From Deltaproteobacteria bacterium RBG_13_61_14 (lineage in GTDB: Bacteria; RBG-13-61-14): a stretch of DNA of 7,517 bases. The translations under genes were made by a program, and so were the position numbers. The notes beneath the pieces are model-generated. The model did no database searches and was not told the DNA's origin. It worked only from the letters and a program-made list of their open reading frames with translations. Below, in pieces: positions 1-6,415 of this stretch. The stretch lies in contig MGQK01000080.1 of NCBI GenBank assembly GCA_001797815.1, positions 51,609 to 59,125 on the forward strand. The letters run 5' to 3'. Positions within the stretch are counted from its first letter, which is position 1. Each line of letters starts with the position of its first letter.

Positions 1-1069
1 TGACCACGCTCTTCGTCTCGGAGCCGGGCTTATACAGGTTCAGCCCGCGCCGCAGCGCCGGATCTTCAGCCAGGGCCGGGTCCAGACCCTTTTCGGCGAT
101 GCGCAGGACGTAAGGGAGCGTGGTGTTGGTCAGGGCTTTGGTGCTGGTGCGGGGGACTGCGCCCGGCATGTTGGCCACGCAGTAGTGAATAACCCCGTGT
201 TGGAAGTAGGTCGGCTGGTCGTGAGTGGTGGGCCGGGAAGTGGCAATGCAGCCGCCCTGGTCCACGGCAATGTCCACGATGACCGAGCCGGGCCGCATCC
301 TGGCTACCAGGTCCTTGGAGACAAGGACGGGCGCGCGGCTGCCGGGAATGAGCACGGCCCCGATCACCAGGTCGGCGTTGGCCACATAGGTTTCAATATT
401 GGCCGGATTGGACATCACCGTGATCAACCGGCCGCTATAAATTTCCTCCAGGCGGGCCAGCCGCTGGAGGGCGATGTCCAGCACCGCGACCTGCGCGCCC
501 ATGCCCACCGCGATGCGGGTGGCGTTGCTCCCGGCCTGGCCGGCGCCCAGGATAGTGACCTTGGCCGGGGCCACGCCCGGGACGCCGCCCAGGAGCACGC
601 CGGCACCCCCGTTCTCGCGCATCAGGTACCAGGCGCCGACCTGCACGGCCATGCGGCCCGCAATCTCGCTCATCGGCGCCAGGCAAGGAAGGGAGCCGTC
701 CTCCAATTGAATCGTTTCGAGCGCCAGGGCATGGACGCCTCGCTCCATCAACGCGGAGGTCAGCTTAGGTGCCGGCGCGAGATGGAGGTAGCAGAAAAGG
801 ATCTGGCCGCGGCGCAAAAATTTGATTTCCATCGGCTGCGGCTCCTTGACTTTCACGATCAACTCCGCCGCAGCGTAAACCGCTTTGGCGCTCGGCATCA
901 GCTCGGCCCCCGCGGCAAGGTATTCCTCGTCCCGGAACCCGCTCCCGGCCCCGGCGCCGGCTTGCACCAGCACCCGGTGCCCCGCCTGAACCAGCGTCTT
1001 GGCCCCGCCCGGCACCAGGCCCACCCGGTATTCCTGGGTCTTGATTTCTTTGGGCACCCCGATGATCAT
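1..1069 (-). CDS. ald: Alanine dehydrogenase, 3' end cut by window edge
   Basis: Catalyses reversible NAD-dependent deamination of L-alanine to pyruvate and ammonium in the cytoplasm. The minus frame is open from ATG at 1069 to the window edge (356 codons). The family is about 370 residues, so only some 15 C-terminal residues are missing. The protein begins MIIGVPKEIKTQEYRVGLVP, the usual start. The residues known to be catalytic or substrate-binding in alanine dehydrogenases are all at their familiar numbers: R15, K75 (in VKVKEP), H96 (CYLH) and D270 (IAVDQGG). The NAD-binding Rossmann loop is GAGQAG at 175-180, followed by the acidic D198. The start codon overlaps the stop of the upstream MBL-fold gene as ATGA, so the two are very probably one transcript with coupled translation. 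No frameshift was seen when I translated it codon by codon. Identity is secure; physiological direction (alanine use or synthesis) cannot be told. Confidence 0.96.
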   Translation of the reverse strand, partial: MIIGVPKEIKTQEYRVGLVPGGAKTLVQAGHRVLVQAGAGAGSGFRDEEYLAAGAELMPSAKAVYAAAELIVKVKEPQPMEIKFLRRGQILFCYLHLAPAPKLTSALMERGVHALALETIQLEDGSLPCLAPMSEIAGRMAVQVGAWYLMRENGGAGVLLGGVPGVAPAKVTILGAGQAGSNATRIAVGMGAQVAVLDIALQRLARLEEIYSGRLITVMSNPANIETYVANADLVIGAVLIPGSRAPVLVSKDLVARMRPGSVIVDIAVDQGGCIATSRPTTHDQPTYFQHGVIHYCVANMPGAVPRTSTKALTNTTLPYVLRIAEKGLDPALAEDPALRRGLNLYKPGSETKSVV

Positions 1070-1912: not shown

Positions 1913-1941
1913 TTGACAGACTGTGGCGGGTTTGGTATAGA
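1913..1941 (+). promoter_or_regulatory. Sigma70-type promoter for the glycosyltransferase genes
   Basis: TTGACA (1913-1918, 6/6 consensus) and TATAGA (1936-1941, 5/6) are separated by exactly 17 bases, the optimal spacing. The start of transcription would be near 1948, giving a leader of about 54 bases before the ATG at 2002. This is the strongest promoter match in the window and most likely drives the GT81 gene and the GT4 gene behind it. Confidence 0.75.
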
Positions 1942-2001: not shown

Positions 2002-2973
2002 ATGAGTTATTGGCTCAAGACACATACTTTTCACCATTCGGAGTTTGCTGACATCGCCCGCCTGGTGGAGCTTAAGCAAGCGAAAGGGCACCGGATCAGC
2101 CTCGCCTTCCCCACCTTGAATGAAGAAGCCACCATCGGACACGAGATTCTAGCGATCCGCAGCGAACTCATGGAACGCCGGCCGCTCCTGGACGAGATCG
2201 CGGTCATTGACAGCGGGAGCGTTGACCGAACCCTGGAATTCGCCGCCGCGGCCGGGGCCGATATTTATTCTGCCCAGGAATGCCTTCCCCAATTCGGCCA
2301 CTGGCCGGGCAAAGGCGACAACCTCTGGAAGAGCCTCTACCTGCTTTCCGGCGATATCCTGGTCTGGCTCGACGGCGATATCAAGAACATCCATCCCAAG
2401 TTCGTTTACGGCCTGGTCGGGCCCCTGCTCCACCACGACCACCTCCAGTTCGTCAAGGCCTTCTACGAACGGCCCCTGCAAATCCCGGGCGATGATTGGG
2501 AATACGGCGGCGGCCGGGTGACCGAGATCCTGGTCCGGCCCTTGCTCTTCTGCTTTTTCCCGGAACTGGCCCGGGTCTATCAGCCCTGCGCCGGCGAGGT
2601 GGCCGCCCGCAGGGGCATCCTGGAAGAGTTGCCCTTTGCGGCCGGTTACGGGATCGAGACCGGCATGCTGATTGATATCTTCACCCGCTTCGGCCCCGGG
2701 GTGATGGCCCAGGTCAACCTCGACCGCCGCGTCCATCGCCACCAGCCGGTCAATGAACTCGGCAAAATGGGCTTTGAAATCCTTCATGCCTTTTTCTCCC
2801 GCCTGGAAGAGTCCGAGCGAGTGCGCCTGGCCGGGCCGCTCGCCGACCATTACCGCAAACTGGTCTGCGGTCCTTCCCTCTACACCTTGGAGGAAACTCG
2901 GGTCCAGGTCCAGGAGCGGCCGCCCATGCGCACCGTCCGCGACTACCAGGTCGGCCGCGGCGGGATCGGCTGA
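2002..2973 (+). CDS. gpgS: Glucosyl-3-phosphoglycerate synthase-like GT81 transferase
   Basis: A 323-residue GT-A-fold retaining glycosyltransferase resembling GpgS, which moves glucose from an NDP-glucose to D-3-phosphoglycerate, the first step to glucosylglycerate and, in mycobacteria, to methylglucose lipopolysaccharide. Length is close to mycobacterial GpgS (324). Motifs in family order: nucleotide-sugar loop PTLNEE (37-42), DSGSVD (70-75), GKG (103-105), metal-binding DGD (124-126, where mycobacterial GpgS has DSD), QPCAGE (194-199), YGIETG (216-221) and histidine-rich RRVHRHQ (242-248). The start is supported by GGAGAAGG about ten bases upstream (1984-1991). A second GGGAG at 1995-1999 is too close to the ATG to serve. 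It is probably first in its transcript. Whether it uses glucose or mannose cannot be read: GT81 contains both activities. No GpgP phosphatase is adjacent. Confidence 0.85.
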   Translation: MSYWLKTHTFHHSEFADIARLVELKQAKGHRISLAFPTLNEEATIGHEILAIRSELMERRPLLDEIAVIDSGSVDRTLEFAAAAGADIYSAQECLPQFGHWPGKGDNLWKSLYLLSGDILVWLDGDIKNIHPKFVYGLVGPLLHHDHLQFVKAFYERPLQIPGDDWEYGGGRVTEILVRPLLFCFFPELARVYQPCAGEVAARRGILEELPFAAGYGIETGMLIDIFTRFGPGVMAQVNLDRRVHRHQPVNELGKMGFEILHAFFSRLEESERVRLAGPLADHYRKLVCGPSLYTLEETRVQVQERPPMRTVRDYQVGRGGIG

Positions 2974-3009
2974 ATTCTTCCGCTTCTTTTTTCGCGGGCC
3001 TTTCCGCTC

Positions 3010-4263
3010 ATGAGAATTTGTCTCCTCAGCTACCGCGGCAACATGTATTGCGGCGGCCAGGGCGTTTACGTCTATTACCTGGGCAAGCACCTGGCCAAGA
3101 TGGGCCACGAGGTCCATCTCATCCAGGGTCCGCCCTATACCTGGGACATGCCCGGCGTGACCATGCACCGCCTCCCCAACTTCAACTTCTTCGCCACCCG
3201 CAAGTTCTTCACCAAGTTCATCCCGGCCGGCGTCAACCTCCTCCAACTCTTCCACCCGCTCCACTTCTACGAGTTCGTAGCCACCCGCTTCGGCTTCTTT
3301 CCGGAAATGGCCGCCTTCAGCTTCCGCGCCTATCGCAAGCTGGTCCAGCTTTCCGCTGAAAAGTCCTTTGATATCGTCCACGACAACCAGACCCTGGCCT
3401 ACGGCCTCCTCCTGATCAAGGCGCTCGGCATCCCGGTCGTCACCACCCTCCATCATCCCCTGGCCGAAGACCTGCGCGAGGATTTCCAGCAGCTACCGAA
3501 CTTCAACGACCGCTTCCGCCGCGCGGTCTATTACCCGGTGCTCATGCACCGGCTGGTCACGCCCCGGCTGGATGAGCTGGTCACCGTGTCGCAGACCGCG
3601 GCCCGCTCGTGCGCCCGCGCCTTCGGGATTCCCGAGGAGCGCATCCGGGTGATTTACAACGGCGTGGACCTGGAGACCTTCCGGCCCGATCCTGCCGCAA
3701 CCAAGGTCCCGCGCCGCCTGATCTTTGTCGGCAATACCGAAGACCGCAAGAAAGGCATCCGCTACCTGTTGGAGGCGCTCTTGCTTTTGCCCAAGGACGT
3801 GACCCTCACCGTGGTGGACGGCGGCGCCCCGCGCCACCTGTTGATGGAAGAACTGCGCCGGCGGCTCAACCTCGGCGACCGCGTCCAATGCACCGGCAAG
3901 ATCCCGACCGCGGAGCTGGTGAAGAAATACCACGAGGCCGAGATCGCGGTGGTGCCCAGCCTCTACGAGGGCTTCGGCTTCCCCGCAGCCGAGGCCATGG
4001 CCTGCGGTCTGCCCGTCGTTTCCAGCGACGGCGGGGCTTTGCCCGAGGTGGTGGGCGCCGATGGGAAAGCCGGCTTCGTGGTGCCGCGCCGGAATCCGCA
4101 GGCCCTGGCCGAGGCCATCAGCAAACTCTTGAAGGATCCTGCCCTCCGCGAGCACATGGGCCGGGCCGGCCGCGAGCGCATCGTCCAAAACTTTTCCTGG
4201 GACGTGGCGTGCGAGCAGATGGTCCGGCTCTATCGGGAGGCCATCGCCCGCCGCTCCCCTTAA
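3010..4263 (+). CDS. GT4-family glycosyltransferase, copy A
   Basis: A 417-residue GT-B-fold retaining glycosyltransferase; acceptor and sugar unknown. The N-terminal domain opens with SYRGNMYCGGQGVYVYYL (7-24), the glycine-rich loop typical of GT4, and contains HDNQ (124-127) and LHHPL (147-151). The donor-binding C-terminal domain begins near IYNGVD (215-220), followed by FVGNTEDRKKGI (239-250). The EX7E motif is E320 to E328 in YEGFGFPAAEAM. There is no signal peptide or membrane helix, so it acts in the cytoplasm or at the inner membrane face. It lies 36 bases after gpgS, in the same frame, and ATG 3010 is the only start after that stop. No Shine-Dalgarno is visible; the leader is pyrimidine-rich. 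The TAA stop lies inside a long palindrome, and the protein ends about ten residues earlier than its paralogue at 4640. An unusual FNFFATRKFFTKF segment (58-70) precedes HFYEF in both copies. Confidence 0.92.
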   Translation: MRICLLSYRGNMYCGGQGVYVYYLGKHLAKMGHEVHLIQGPPYTWDMPGVTMHRLPNFNFFATRKFFTKFIPAGVNLLQLFHPLHFYEFVATRFGFFPEMAAFSFRAYRKLVQLSAEKSFDIVHDNQTLAYGLLLIKALGIPVVTTLHHPLAEDLREDFQQLPNFNDRFRRAVYYPVLMHRLVTPRLDELVTVSQTAARSCARAFGIPEERIRVIYNGVDLETFRPDPAATKVPRRLIFVGNTEDRKKGIRYLLEALLLLPKDVTLTVVDGGAPRHLLMEELRRRLNLGDRVQCTGKIPTAELVKKYHEAEIAVVPSLYEGFGFPAAEAMACGLPVVSSDGGALPEVVGADGKAGFVVPRRNPQALAEAISKLLKDPALREHMGRAGRERIVQNFSWDVACEQMVRLYREAIARRSP

Positions 4264-4303
4264 TCTAACATTCGGGGTCAGACCCCAAATGTTAGATTAA
4301 GGG
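4257..4303. repeat. 47-base near-perfect palindrome
   Basis: Centred on A4280. GGGGTC (4274-4279) pairs with GACCCC (4281-4286), one C/A mismatch (4273/4287) follows, then CCCTTAATCTAACATT (4257-4272) pairs with AATGTTAGATTAAGGG (4288-4303). Arms are thus 23 bases with one mismatch. It contributes the last Ser-Pro codon bases and the TAA stop of GT4 copy A. No T run follows on either strand, so it is not a classical intrinsic terminator, though a hairpin this stable could still pause polymerase or protect the upstream mRNA. Its form suggests a dispersed palindromic (REP-like) element; I cannot see other copies in the window. Confidence 0.85.
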
Positions 4304-4305
4304 AG

Positions 4306-4334
4306 TTGGCGGGGTGATGAATTTGAGCTAGAAT
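4306..4334 (+). promoter_or_regulatory. Candidate promoter for the membrane protein/GT4 copy B genes
   Basis: TTGGCG (4306-4311, 4/6) and TAGAAT (4329-4334, 5/6) are 17 bases apart, directly after the palindrome. Transcription would begin near 4341, leaving a leader of about 35 bases. It would let the downstream genes be expressed independently if the palindrome blocks read-through. Prediction from hexamers only. Confidence 0.45.
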
Positions 4335-4360
4335 GAGCACGCTGGGTTTGGAAAGTCAGC

Positions 4361-4370
4361 GAGGAGGAGG
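4361..4370 (+). promoter_or_regulatory. Strong ribosome binding site
   Basis: GAGGAGGAGG ends five bases before the ATG at 4376. It gives a near-ideal anti-16S match and fixes the start of the small membrane protein. It is much stronger than the sites of the neighbouring glycosyltransferase genes. Confidence 0.85.
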
Positions 4371-4375
4371 TAAAC

Positions 4376-4600
4376 ATGGATCGGACGCGAATGTACGGCG
4401 GGCTGATTTGCCTGGCCATCCTGGTGGCAGCGCTTTTGTTCATCGTCGGGGTCTTCAACCATAGCTACGTGGCCCTGGCCATCCCGGTCACCGTCATCAC
4501 TCTCACTTTGCTCGGTCTGGCCTTTTGGGTGGGCTGGACCATCTGGACCATCAAGGTGGAGCCGCCCCAGCCGGACCAGGAAGAAAAAAAAGCAAGCTAA
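4376..4600 (+). CDS. Small two-helix membrane protein, function unknown
   Basis: A 74-residue protein that I do not recognise as a named family. Residues about 7-27 (YGGLICLAILVAALLFIVGV region) and about 31-58 (ending LAFWVGWTIWTI) are strongly hydrophobic and should form two transmembrane helices separated by a short FNHS turn. The N terminus has R3 and R5, and the tail (60-74) is polar and charged with PPQPDQEEKK, which suggests both ends face the cytoplasm. A very strong Shine-Dalgarno and good coding character, with no sign of being a shadow of another gene, support it as real. It lies between the two GT4 paralogues, 39 bases before copy B, so it is probably co-transcribed with that gene. 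A role in anchoring a glycosyltransferase complex at the membrane is possible but is only inferred from position. Confidence 0.82.
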   Translation: MDRTRMYGGLICLAILVAALLFIVGVFNHSYVALAIPVTVITLTLLGLAFWVGWTIWTIKVEPPQPDQEEKKAS

Positions 4601-4609
4601 CCCCGGAAC

Positions 4610-4628
4610 CCTCCGATTTCTGGAGGAG
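4610..4628 (+). promoter_or_regulatory. Ribosome binding site with possible masking hairpin
   Basis: GGAGGAG (4622-4628) is the ribosome binding site of GT4 copy B, eleven bases before its ATG. CCTCC (4610-4614) can pair with GGAGG (4622-4626) over a seven-base loop and would hide the site. The stem is only five pairs, so this may be incidental. Confidence 0.4.
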
Positions 4629-4639
4629 CACTCGATCCG

Positions 4640-5908
4640 ATGAAGGTCTGCATTCTCAGCTACCGCGGCAACATGTATTCGGGCGGGCAGGGGATTTATC
4701 TCTACTACCTGACCCGGGAGCTAGCTAAGCTCGGGCACGAGGTGACCGTGCTGGTGGGACCGCCTTATCCGGCGGAGATGCCCTGGGCCAGGGTGATCAA
4801 GATCCCCAATGAAAATTTTTATGCCGTAAAAAGAGATTGGCTCCCCAAGGACAATCCCCTCAAAATTTTCACGCCCCTCAATTTCTATGAGTTCGCGGTC
4901 ACCCGGGCCTGGTTCTTTCCGGAGATGCTCACCTTCTCGCTCCGCGCATACGCCAAGCTCTACGAGCTCTGGCAGGCCGGCGAGCGCTGGGATATTTTCC
5001 ACGACAACCAGTGCCTGGGCTACGGCTACCTCTTGATGAAGGCCTTCGGCCCACCGGTGATCGCCTCCATCCACCACCCCCTGGGCATGGACCGGGCCGC
5101 GGACTTCGAGCAGACCCAGGGCCTCCTTGAGCGCGCCCGCCGCATCGTCTTCTATCCTTTCGTCATGCAGAAGTGGGTGGCGCGGCAACTGGACCTGGTC
5201 ATCTCCGGGTCCCATGATTCCGCCCGGCTGGTGCAGGAAACTTTTGGCCTGGACCCGGCGAAAATGCGGCCGGTCTGGGACGGGGTGGACGACGGGGTGT
5301 TCAACCTGAAGAACGGCACAGCCAAGGTGCCGGGCCGGCTGATCTTTGTGGGCAACACCGAAGACCACAAGAAGGGCATCTGGTATTTGATGAAGGCGCT
5401 CTCCATGCTGCCTCCGGAGGTGCACCTGCGGGTGGTGGACGGCTGCTCGAAGTGGAAGTTTTTAGCCAACTGGCTGATCGAGAAATACAAGCTCCAGGGC
5501 CGGGTCACGTTCAAGGCCCGGATCCCGGCCGAGGAGTTGGCCGAGGAATACCGCGCGGCCGAGGTAGCGGTGGTGCCGAGCGTATATGAGGGCTTCGGCT
5601 TGCCCGCGGCCGAGGCCATGGCCTGCGCCACGCCGGTGGTGGCCACCGACGGCGGCGCTTTGCCCGAGGTGGTTGGCAACGAAGGCGCCGGGCTGGTGGT
5701 CCCGGCCAAGAACGCGAAGGCCCTGGCCGAGGCCATCCGCAAGCTGCTCGCCGACGAGAAGCTGCGCCAAGAGGTCGGGATGCGTGGCCACGAGCGGGCG
5801 ATGAAACATTTCACCTGGCGGCAAATGGCCATCGGCACGGCCGAGGTTTACCGCGAGGCCATCCGCCTCAAGTCGCGCAGTGCACAGTATGAAAGCAATC
5901 AGTTCTGA
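4640..5908 (+). CDS. GT4-family glycosyltransferase, copy B
   Basis: A 422-residue GT-B retaining glycosyltransferase, clearly a paralogue of the gene at 3010: shared blocks are SYRGNMYSGGQG (7-18), LAKLGHEV (28-35), HDNQ (121-124), HHPL (145-148), RLIFVGNTEDHKKGI (233-247) and the EX7E region YEGFGLPAAEAMAC, with E317 and E325. A run of about 25 identical bases at the 5' ends (CTCAGCTACC onward) also betrays common descent. It differs from copy A in the acceptor domain (VKRDWLPKDNPLKIF at 63-77) and where copy A has IYNGVD, it has VWDGVD (212-217): the usual Asn is Asp. These changes suggest a different acceptor or donor. No signal peptide or membrane helix. The start is set by GGAGGAG at 4622. 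The C terminus ends with a polar tail absent from copy A. Sugar and acceptor are unknown. Confidence 0.92.
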   Translation: MKVCILSYRGNMYSGGQGIYLYYLTRELAKLGHEVTVLVGPPYPAEMPWARVIKIPNENFYAVKRDWLPKDNPLKIFTPLNFYEFAVTRAWFFPEMLTFSLRAYAKLYELWQAGERWDIFHDNQCLGYGYLLMKAFGPPVIASIHHPLGMDRAADFEQTQGLLERARRIVFYPFVMQKWVARQLDLVISGSHDSARLVQETFGLDPAKMRPVWDGVDDGVFNLKNGTAKVPGRLIFVGNTEDHKKGIWYLMKALSMLPPEVHLRVVDGCSKWKFLANWLIEKYKLQGRVTFKARIPAEELAEEYRAAEVAVVPSVYEGFGLPAAEAMACATPVVATDGGALPEVVGNEGAGLVVPAKNAKALAEAIRKLLADEKLRQEVGMRGHERAMKHFTWRQMAIGTAEVYREAIRLKSRSAQYESNQF

Positions 5909-6326: not shown

Positions 6327-6415
6327 ACCCACCCTTCTAACGAAGGGCGGGCTACAAGATTGAGATGCCTACCCACCCTTCGAAGCGAAGGGCGGGTTAC
6401 AAGATGGATATGCCT
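6327..6415 (+). repeat. Tandem pair of hairpin repeats
   Basis: Two direct copies, 6327-6370 (44 bases) and 6371-6415 (45 bases), begin right after the hot-dog gene stop. Each holds a hairpin: CCCACCCTTC / GAAGGGCGGG with a TAAC loop in copy 1 (6328-6351), and CCCACCCTTCG / CGAAGGGCGGG with an AAG loop in copy 2 (6372-6396), each with one A/C mismatch. Each is followed by YTACAAGATKGAKATGCCT. The second copy runs into the start of rimO. No T run follows, so these are not standard terminators. The form suggests a short palindromic repeat of the intergenic (REP/MITE-like) kind. Confidence 0.85.

Follow-up and report, generated by a model that had tools for sequence, protein, structure and literature searches.

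A four-gene cassette in the 7,517-nucleotide stretch analysed here (hereafter the window; Deltaproteobacteria bacterium RBG_13_61_14, contig MGQK01000080.1, our contig C80 of the 4.7 Mb assembly G000) encodes, in this order on the plus strand, a GpgS-like family 81 glycosyltransferase (GT81), a family 4 glycosyltransferase (GT4a), a small membrane protein (SMP), and a second family 4 glycosyltransferase (GT4b). We consider, with a probability of about one half, that this cassette is an MmpH-less variant of the cytosolic synthesis of methylated-hexose oligosaccharides, as in the mycobacterial methylmannose polysaccharide (MMP) and methylglucose lipopolysaccharide (MGLP) pathways. The open reading frames (ORFs) of GT81 (323 aa, 2002..2973), GT4a (417 aa, 3010..4263), SMP (74 aa, 4376..4600), and GT4b (422 aa, 4640..5908) were all confirmed at these coordinates, with intergenic gaps of 36, 112, and 39 bp, respectively. 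The phylum was sampled by three genomes, namely G000 and two relatives (G001 and G002) that match contigs from uncultured bins of Lake Alinen sediment, and the cassette was collinear in all three, with identities to both relatives of 64-65% for GT81, 63-64% for GT4a, 56% for SMP, and 61% for GT4b. Because the order is kept in both other genomes, it is not due to chance. An earlier reading of this DNA (the original prediction) had listed a GpgS-like enzyme, two paralogous GT4 enzymes, and a two-helix membrane protein in this order on one strand, and had named separation of the four genes in relatives as grounds for giving up its proposal; these gene assignments stood, and the order was intact in both relatives.

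The most informative members of the cassette are the two GT4 enzymes. The best PDB match of both was 7QSG, the structure of ManT, which is the GDP-mannose-dependent alpha-1,4-mannosyltransferase of MMP (PMC9883506); the scores were 243.9 bits for GT4a and 231 bits for GT4b, while the next structures reached only 115.1 and 108 bits. The two proteins are full-length paralogues of each other (50% identity), align over their full length to ManT of the actinobacterium Nonomuraea with 37-38% identity, and retain the equivalents of ManT K240, E313, and E321, the loss of which inactivates or cripples ManT, as well as the HDNQ and HHP motifs of the N-domain. On this sequence evidence, both enzymes belong to the ManT family. 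A third ManT-like paralogue is encoded elsewhere in the window genome (contig C39), and one is also present in G001. In a phylogenetic tree, the three paralogues of the phylum formed one lineage (support 96/87), indicating that the GT4 duplications are local to the phylum, and actinobacterial ManT fell in a sister clade that bears MmpH. The window genome also encodes a homologue of GDP-mannose pyrophosphorylase, which makes a mannose donor possible.

The same comparisons bear on an MGLP-type pathway, in which the GT4s would be Rv3032-like alpha-1,4-glucosyltransferases building 6-O-methylglucose chains on glucosylglycerate. GpgS (Rv1208) starts MGLP synthesis and lies near the GT4 gene Rv1212c in M. 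tuberculosis (PMC2674218), and the best NCBIfam match of both cassette GT4s was TIGR02149 (glgA_Coryne), below its cut-off. However, of the GT4s with a solved structure, ManT stands far closer than any other, GlgM (6TVP) scoring only 82-85 bits against both enzymes, and TIGR02149 does not discriminate, since it is equally the sub-threshold top match of Nonomuraea ManT. We therefore rejected this match as a sign of glucan synthesis and regard the MGLP-type pathway as improbable.

The partner methyltransferase points in the same direction as the GT4s. In both relatives, a gene for an S-adenosylmethionine (SAM)-dependent methyltransferase, MT1, followed by hisG, lies downstream of GT4b. An MT1 ortholog is present in all three genomes of the phylum; that of the window genome (311.9 bits, the next best protein of that genome scoring 70 bits) is 62.5% identical to the linked copy of a relative and is encoded on another contig (C53, 104606-105304), again with hisG downstream. 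Because of this arrangement, an ancestral cassette-MT1-hisG block was probably broken up by a rearrangement in the window genome. The mycobacterial MMP cluster consists of meT1, mmpH, pmeT3, and manT (PMC9883506), and the Nonomuraea locus has the order ManT, MT1, MmpH, and then MeT1 on the other strand. Since the slot of MT1 in Nonomuraea matches that of pMeT3 in the mycobacterial cluster and the window genome copy is 43% identical to the Nonomuraea copy, MT1 can be assigned by slot and similarity to the family of pMeT3, the putative 3-O-methyltransferase of MMP. MmpH gave no match in G000 or G002 and only a 26.7-bit fragment in G001. MeT1 gave no match in the three genomes in a search with a single actinobacterial query and no positive-control genome; the query itself matches the MeT1 structure 6G7D at 8e-77.

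SMP is predicted to form two helices (residues 3-28 and 32-58; predicted local distance difference test score 73.8), its hydropathy profile has two peaks, and it matched no Pfam or NCBIfam family above the cut-off. SMP homologues adjoin ManT-like GT4 genes in several phyla. As a less biased check, 386 genomes from many phyla were searched: a ManT-like GT4 was found in seven and SMP in five, all among those seven, and no genome without a ManT-like GT4 carried SMP (p = 3e-10; 1e-6 when this phylum is treated as a single case; the genomes were spread by kinship and not at random). The two SMP-bearing genomes outside the phylum had the order SMP-GT4-MT1, and the remaining two ManT-like genomes had GT4-MT1-MmpH. 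SMP is thus a family of its own that is specific to ManT-like GT4s and marks one clade of these systems. In Spirochaetota (L055, L056, and L109), SMP is a tandem fusion with two units in one ORF.

A wider survey showed that these systems are of two kinds. One scan of named genomes yielded 57 loci with ManT-like genes, and profile searches covered the scanned loci, two loci of the window genome itself, and the Nonomuraea locus; loci L053-L109 over-sample near relatives because motifs taken from the window GT4s served to collect them. ManT-like loci were found in Chloroflexi, Spirochaetota, Myxococcota, Nitrospinota, Desulfobacterota, and Microbulbifer, and also in Asgard-type archaea including Jordarchaeia and Freyarchaeota. 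MT1 adjoined the ManT-like gene in 50 of the 59 listed loci, the Nonomuraea locus among them, and several of the others end at a contig edge. MmpH, identified by its match to 7QSJ (7.5e-106), was present in 8/13 loci of one GT4 clade and 0/23 of the other, while SMP was present in 0/13 and 14/23, respectively; no locus carried both. Several arrangements in this collection are worth recording in their own right. Microbulbifer and Dehalococcoidia have MMP-type ManT-pMeT3-MmpH clusters outside Actinobacteria (L085, L094, L098, L099, L100, L103, L104, and L106). Asgard-type loci (L090, L092, L093, L097, and L105) show a constant order of a distant second GT4, the ManT-like GT4, MT1, another methyltransferase, and an aminotransferase-like gene. 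Many Dehalococcoidia loci (L057-L072) have a near-constant GT4-MT1-GT4 block downstream of NAD-kinase-like and NUDIX-like genes, followed on the opposite strand by a second methyltransferase family, MT2.

The restriction of SMP, a membrane protein, to this GT4 clade could also fit a membrane or envelope glycoconjugate, in which the GT4s would act on a lipid-linked acceptor, SMP would anchor them, and the methyltransferase would cap the glycan. The gene beside the third paralogue on C39 resembles a DegT-type sugar aminotransferase (a family read from the sequence, not from a profile), which is in keeping with such a product. On the other hand, the cassette loci showed no recognizable gene for a flippase, a polymerase, or export, and ManT, the closest characterized enzyme, makes a soluble cytosolic polymer (PMC9883506). 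We thus judge the glycoconjugate unlikely and retain cytosolic oligosaccharide synthesis as the preferred reading.

GT81 scored 365.5 bits against NCBIfam NF010496 (glucosyl-3-phosphoglycerate synthase; cut-off 262) and matched mycobacterial GpgS structures with E values of about 1e-65. The UDP-, metal-, and 3-phosphoglycerate-binding residues of the M. tuberculosis enzyme GpgS (PMC2581804) are retained, namely E54, S81, K114, D134, and D136, together with GRVT184-187, Y229, E232, R256, H258, and M269; Ser81 excludes guanine in the M. tuberculosis enzyme (PMC2581804). In the donor-sugar pocket, Leu209 is replaced with Cys in all three cassette GT81s, while M. tuberculosis GpgS and seven GT81s of other phyla keep the Leu. 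This common L209C replacement suggests a dedicated role and would predict a shift in donor preference; a further change, N260H, is confined to the window enzyme. Rubrobacter MpgS, which is also a GT81, followed GpgS closely (208.8 versus 225.7 bits), and the sugar transferred by GT81 would be glucose or possibly mannose. A GT81 followed by a GT4 is also the logic of the mannosylglucosylglycerate (MGG) solute pathway, an option raised by the original prediction, in which the GT4s would be MGG or MGG-phosphate synthases. In some other phyla, GT81 adjoins a histidine-phosphatase-like gene (read from sequence) and an unrelated GT4 (L037 and L039). However, NF041101 (MGG synthase) was absent from the best 25 NCBIfam families of either cassette GT4, while the gene beside GT81 in L036 matches it weakly, and a set of two GT4s, a methyltransferase, and SMP is not what a trisaccharide solute would require. 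The MGG option is not supported and seems very improbable.

In the pathway we propose, GT81 would generate a primer by glycosylating 3-phosphoglycerate with a hexose (glucose, possibly mannose) taken from a nucleotide sugar; GT4a and GT4b would then extend this primer with alpha-linked hexoses, perhaps with one enzyme to start the chain and the other to elongate it. The pMeT3-type methyltransferase would then methylate the added residues, and SMP, a predicted two-helix hairpin in the membrane that carries a charged tail, would probably keep the GT4 enzymes there. Mycobacteria prime new chains with fragments that MmpH cleaves from old polysaccharide (PMC9883506), so that an MmpH-less system needs another primer source; in the related MGLP pathway, a GpgS-type GT81 serves as a primer enzyme (PMC2674218). 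The original prediction had likewise proposed that the GT4 pair may extend a GT81-made primer, with the small protein tethering the enzymes. Its pathway was partly right, in that the GT4s most likely extend a primer into an oligosaccharide, but the tether and the GT81 product as GT4 acceptor have so far lacked support, the latter as most ManT-like systems have no strong GT81 match, and it had missed the ManT homology, the pMeT3-type partner, and SMP as its own family.

Several observations weigh against our proposal, above all against the priming step. We infer the role of GT81 as primer maker from linkage in one small phylum, and no GpgP-like phosphatase was recognized among the window genes. 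A strong GT81 match (E<1e-50) was present in only 4 of 50 genomes with ManT-like systems, which argues against GT81 as a general component of the pathway; most SMP-type genomes also have no strong match, and GT81 may have been added in this lineage alone or be a neighbour with an independent role. The association of GT81 presence with MmpH absence was not significant (7/44 versus 0/9 genomes, p = 0.33). At the spirochaete locus L055, the ORF at 10864 had been considered as a GT81 neighbour but reads as a tryptophanyl-tRNA synthetase, so the weak GT81 match in that genome must come from another place or from an overlapping frame and did not enter the analysis. As to the other steps, the methyltransferase gene is unlinked to the GT4 genes in the window genome, and the guanine-contacting Asp293 of ManT is not retained in the cassette GT4s; we dropped this residue as a donor marker because it is also lost in MmpH-associated enzymes and is thus uninformative on the donor. 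The GT81 distribution gives some weight to two independent functions, with GT81 making glucosylglycerate as a compatible solute and GT4a, SMP, GT4b, and the methyltransferase making an unrelated methylated glycan on an acceptor of their own. SMP-GT4-methyltransferase modules without a linked GT81 occur in Spirochaetota, Myxococcota, Nitrospinota, and Chloroflexi, and in none of the four genomes with a strong GT81 match does GT81 adjoin the GT4. In contrast, GT81 is the first gene of the cassette in all three genomes of the phylum, 36 bp ahead of GT4a and behind one conserved promoter, and its cassette-specific L209C also speaks for a dedicated role. Two separate functions are accordingly a serious but rather unlikely alternative to a single pathway begun by GT81.

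The promoter-like element upstream of GT81 (1913..1941, plus strand; TTGACA-N17-TATAGA) matches the consensus at 10 of 12 positions. Because its -10 box lacks the last T, a strict promoter scan omits it, and the 'excellent promoter' of the original prediction was roughly right. Both relatives (L053 and L054) have TTCTTGACA, a 17-nt spacer, and TATAGG or TAAAAG ahead of GT81, and this conservation is better evidence than the consensus score. Between GT4a and SMP lies a near-perfect palindrome, TAATCTAACATTcGGGGTCAGACCCCaAATGTTAGATTA (4261..4300), which overlaps the GT4a stop codon. Its core, ATTTGGGGTCTGACCCC (up to one mismatch), occurs in about 30 copies in the genome compared with none for the reversed control, and this dispersed repeat probably has no function in the cassette. 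The plus strand of the window beyond GT4b carries a hotdog/MaoC-like gene and rimO, and just 5' of rimO (6327-6405) is a tandem pair of nearly identical palindromic units of about 39 bp (CCCACCCTTC...GAAGGGCGGG.TACAAGAT). The minus strand encodes an alanine dehydrogenase and an MBL-fold hydrolase. The former (window 2-1069; L033:10954-12678) has 574 aa in the full contig, where it is unusually fused to a nitroreductase domain (PF00881) at its C-terminus, and the latter (1066-1839) scored 327 bits against NF038231 (GPMC system MBL fold metallohydrolase), just below the 360-bit cut-off.

In the literature we found, MMP and its genes have been described so far only in mycobacteria and related actinobacteria; a search for methylmannose or polymethylated polysaccharides outside Actinobacteria returned only mycobacterial, actinobacterial, or unrelated work, although its coverage was limited and this is not proof of novelty. 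The present results extend the range of the ManT-pMeT3 pair to many uncultured phyla of bacteria and to Asgard-type archaea, divide these systems into MmpH-bearing and SMP-bearing kinds, and provide a clear genomic partner for SMP, a family of small membrane proteins that has no function assigned to it. We tentatively suggest, as a possibility less likely than not, that there may be a second widespread bacterial and archaeal branch in which ManT-pMeT3 acts on the membrane with SMP replacing the recycling hydrolase MmpH, and in which, in this phylum, chains are begun anew on a phosphoglycerate glycoside made by GT81 and not on pieces of earlier chains. The question at stake is how MMP chains are first started, since the known mechanism recycles old chains; by joining an MMP-type elongation pair to an MGLP-type starter GT81, the window phylum offers a directly testable answer on priming.

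Among known systems, MGG synthesis by GpgS and MGG synthase shares with the cassette a GT81 followed by a GT4, but the cassette GT4s lie outside the MGG synthase family and are accompanied by a methyltransferase and SMP. The mycobacterial MGLP pathway, which consists of GpgS (Rv1208), GpgP, the GT4s Rv3032 and Rv1212c, and methyltransferases (PMC2674218, PMC2581804), likewise starts with a GpgS-type GT81 with conserved catalytic residues. It differs in that the cassette GT4s are nearer to ManT than to GlgM, the sole MGLP/glycogen-type GT4 with a structure, and in that neither GpgP nor a branching enzyme is found in the window. The mycobacterial MMP cluster resembles the cassette in its ManT-type GT4s with the same catalytic residues and in a methyltransferase whose family occupies, in the MMP-type locus of Nonomuraea, the slot of pMeT3. 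Unlike that cluster, the window genome has no detected MmpH, two cassette ManT-like enzymes plus a third elsewhere, and an unlinked methyltransferase, while SMP and GT81 are added in the cassette. Compared with the mycobacterial pathway, the system thus probably combines a different starter enzyme with a small membrane protein not described before.

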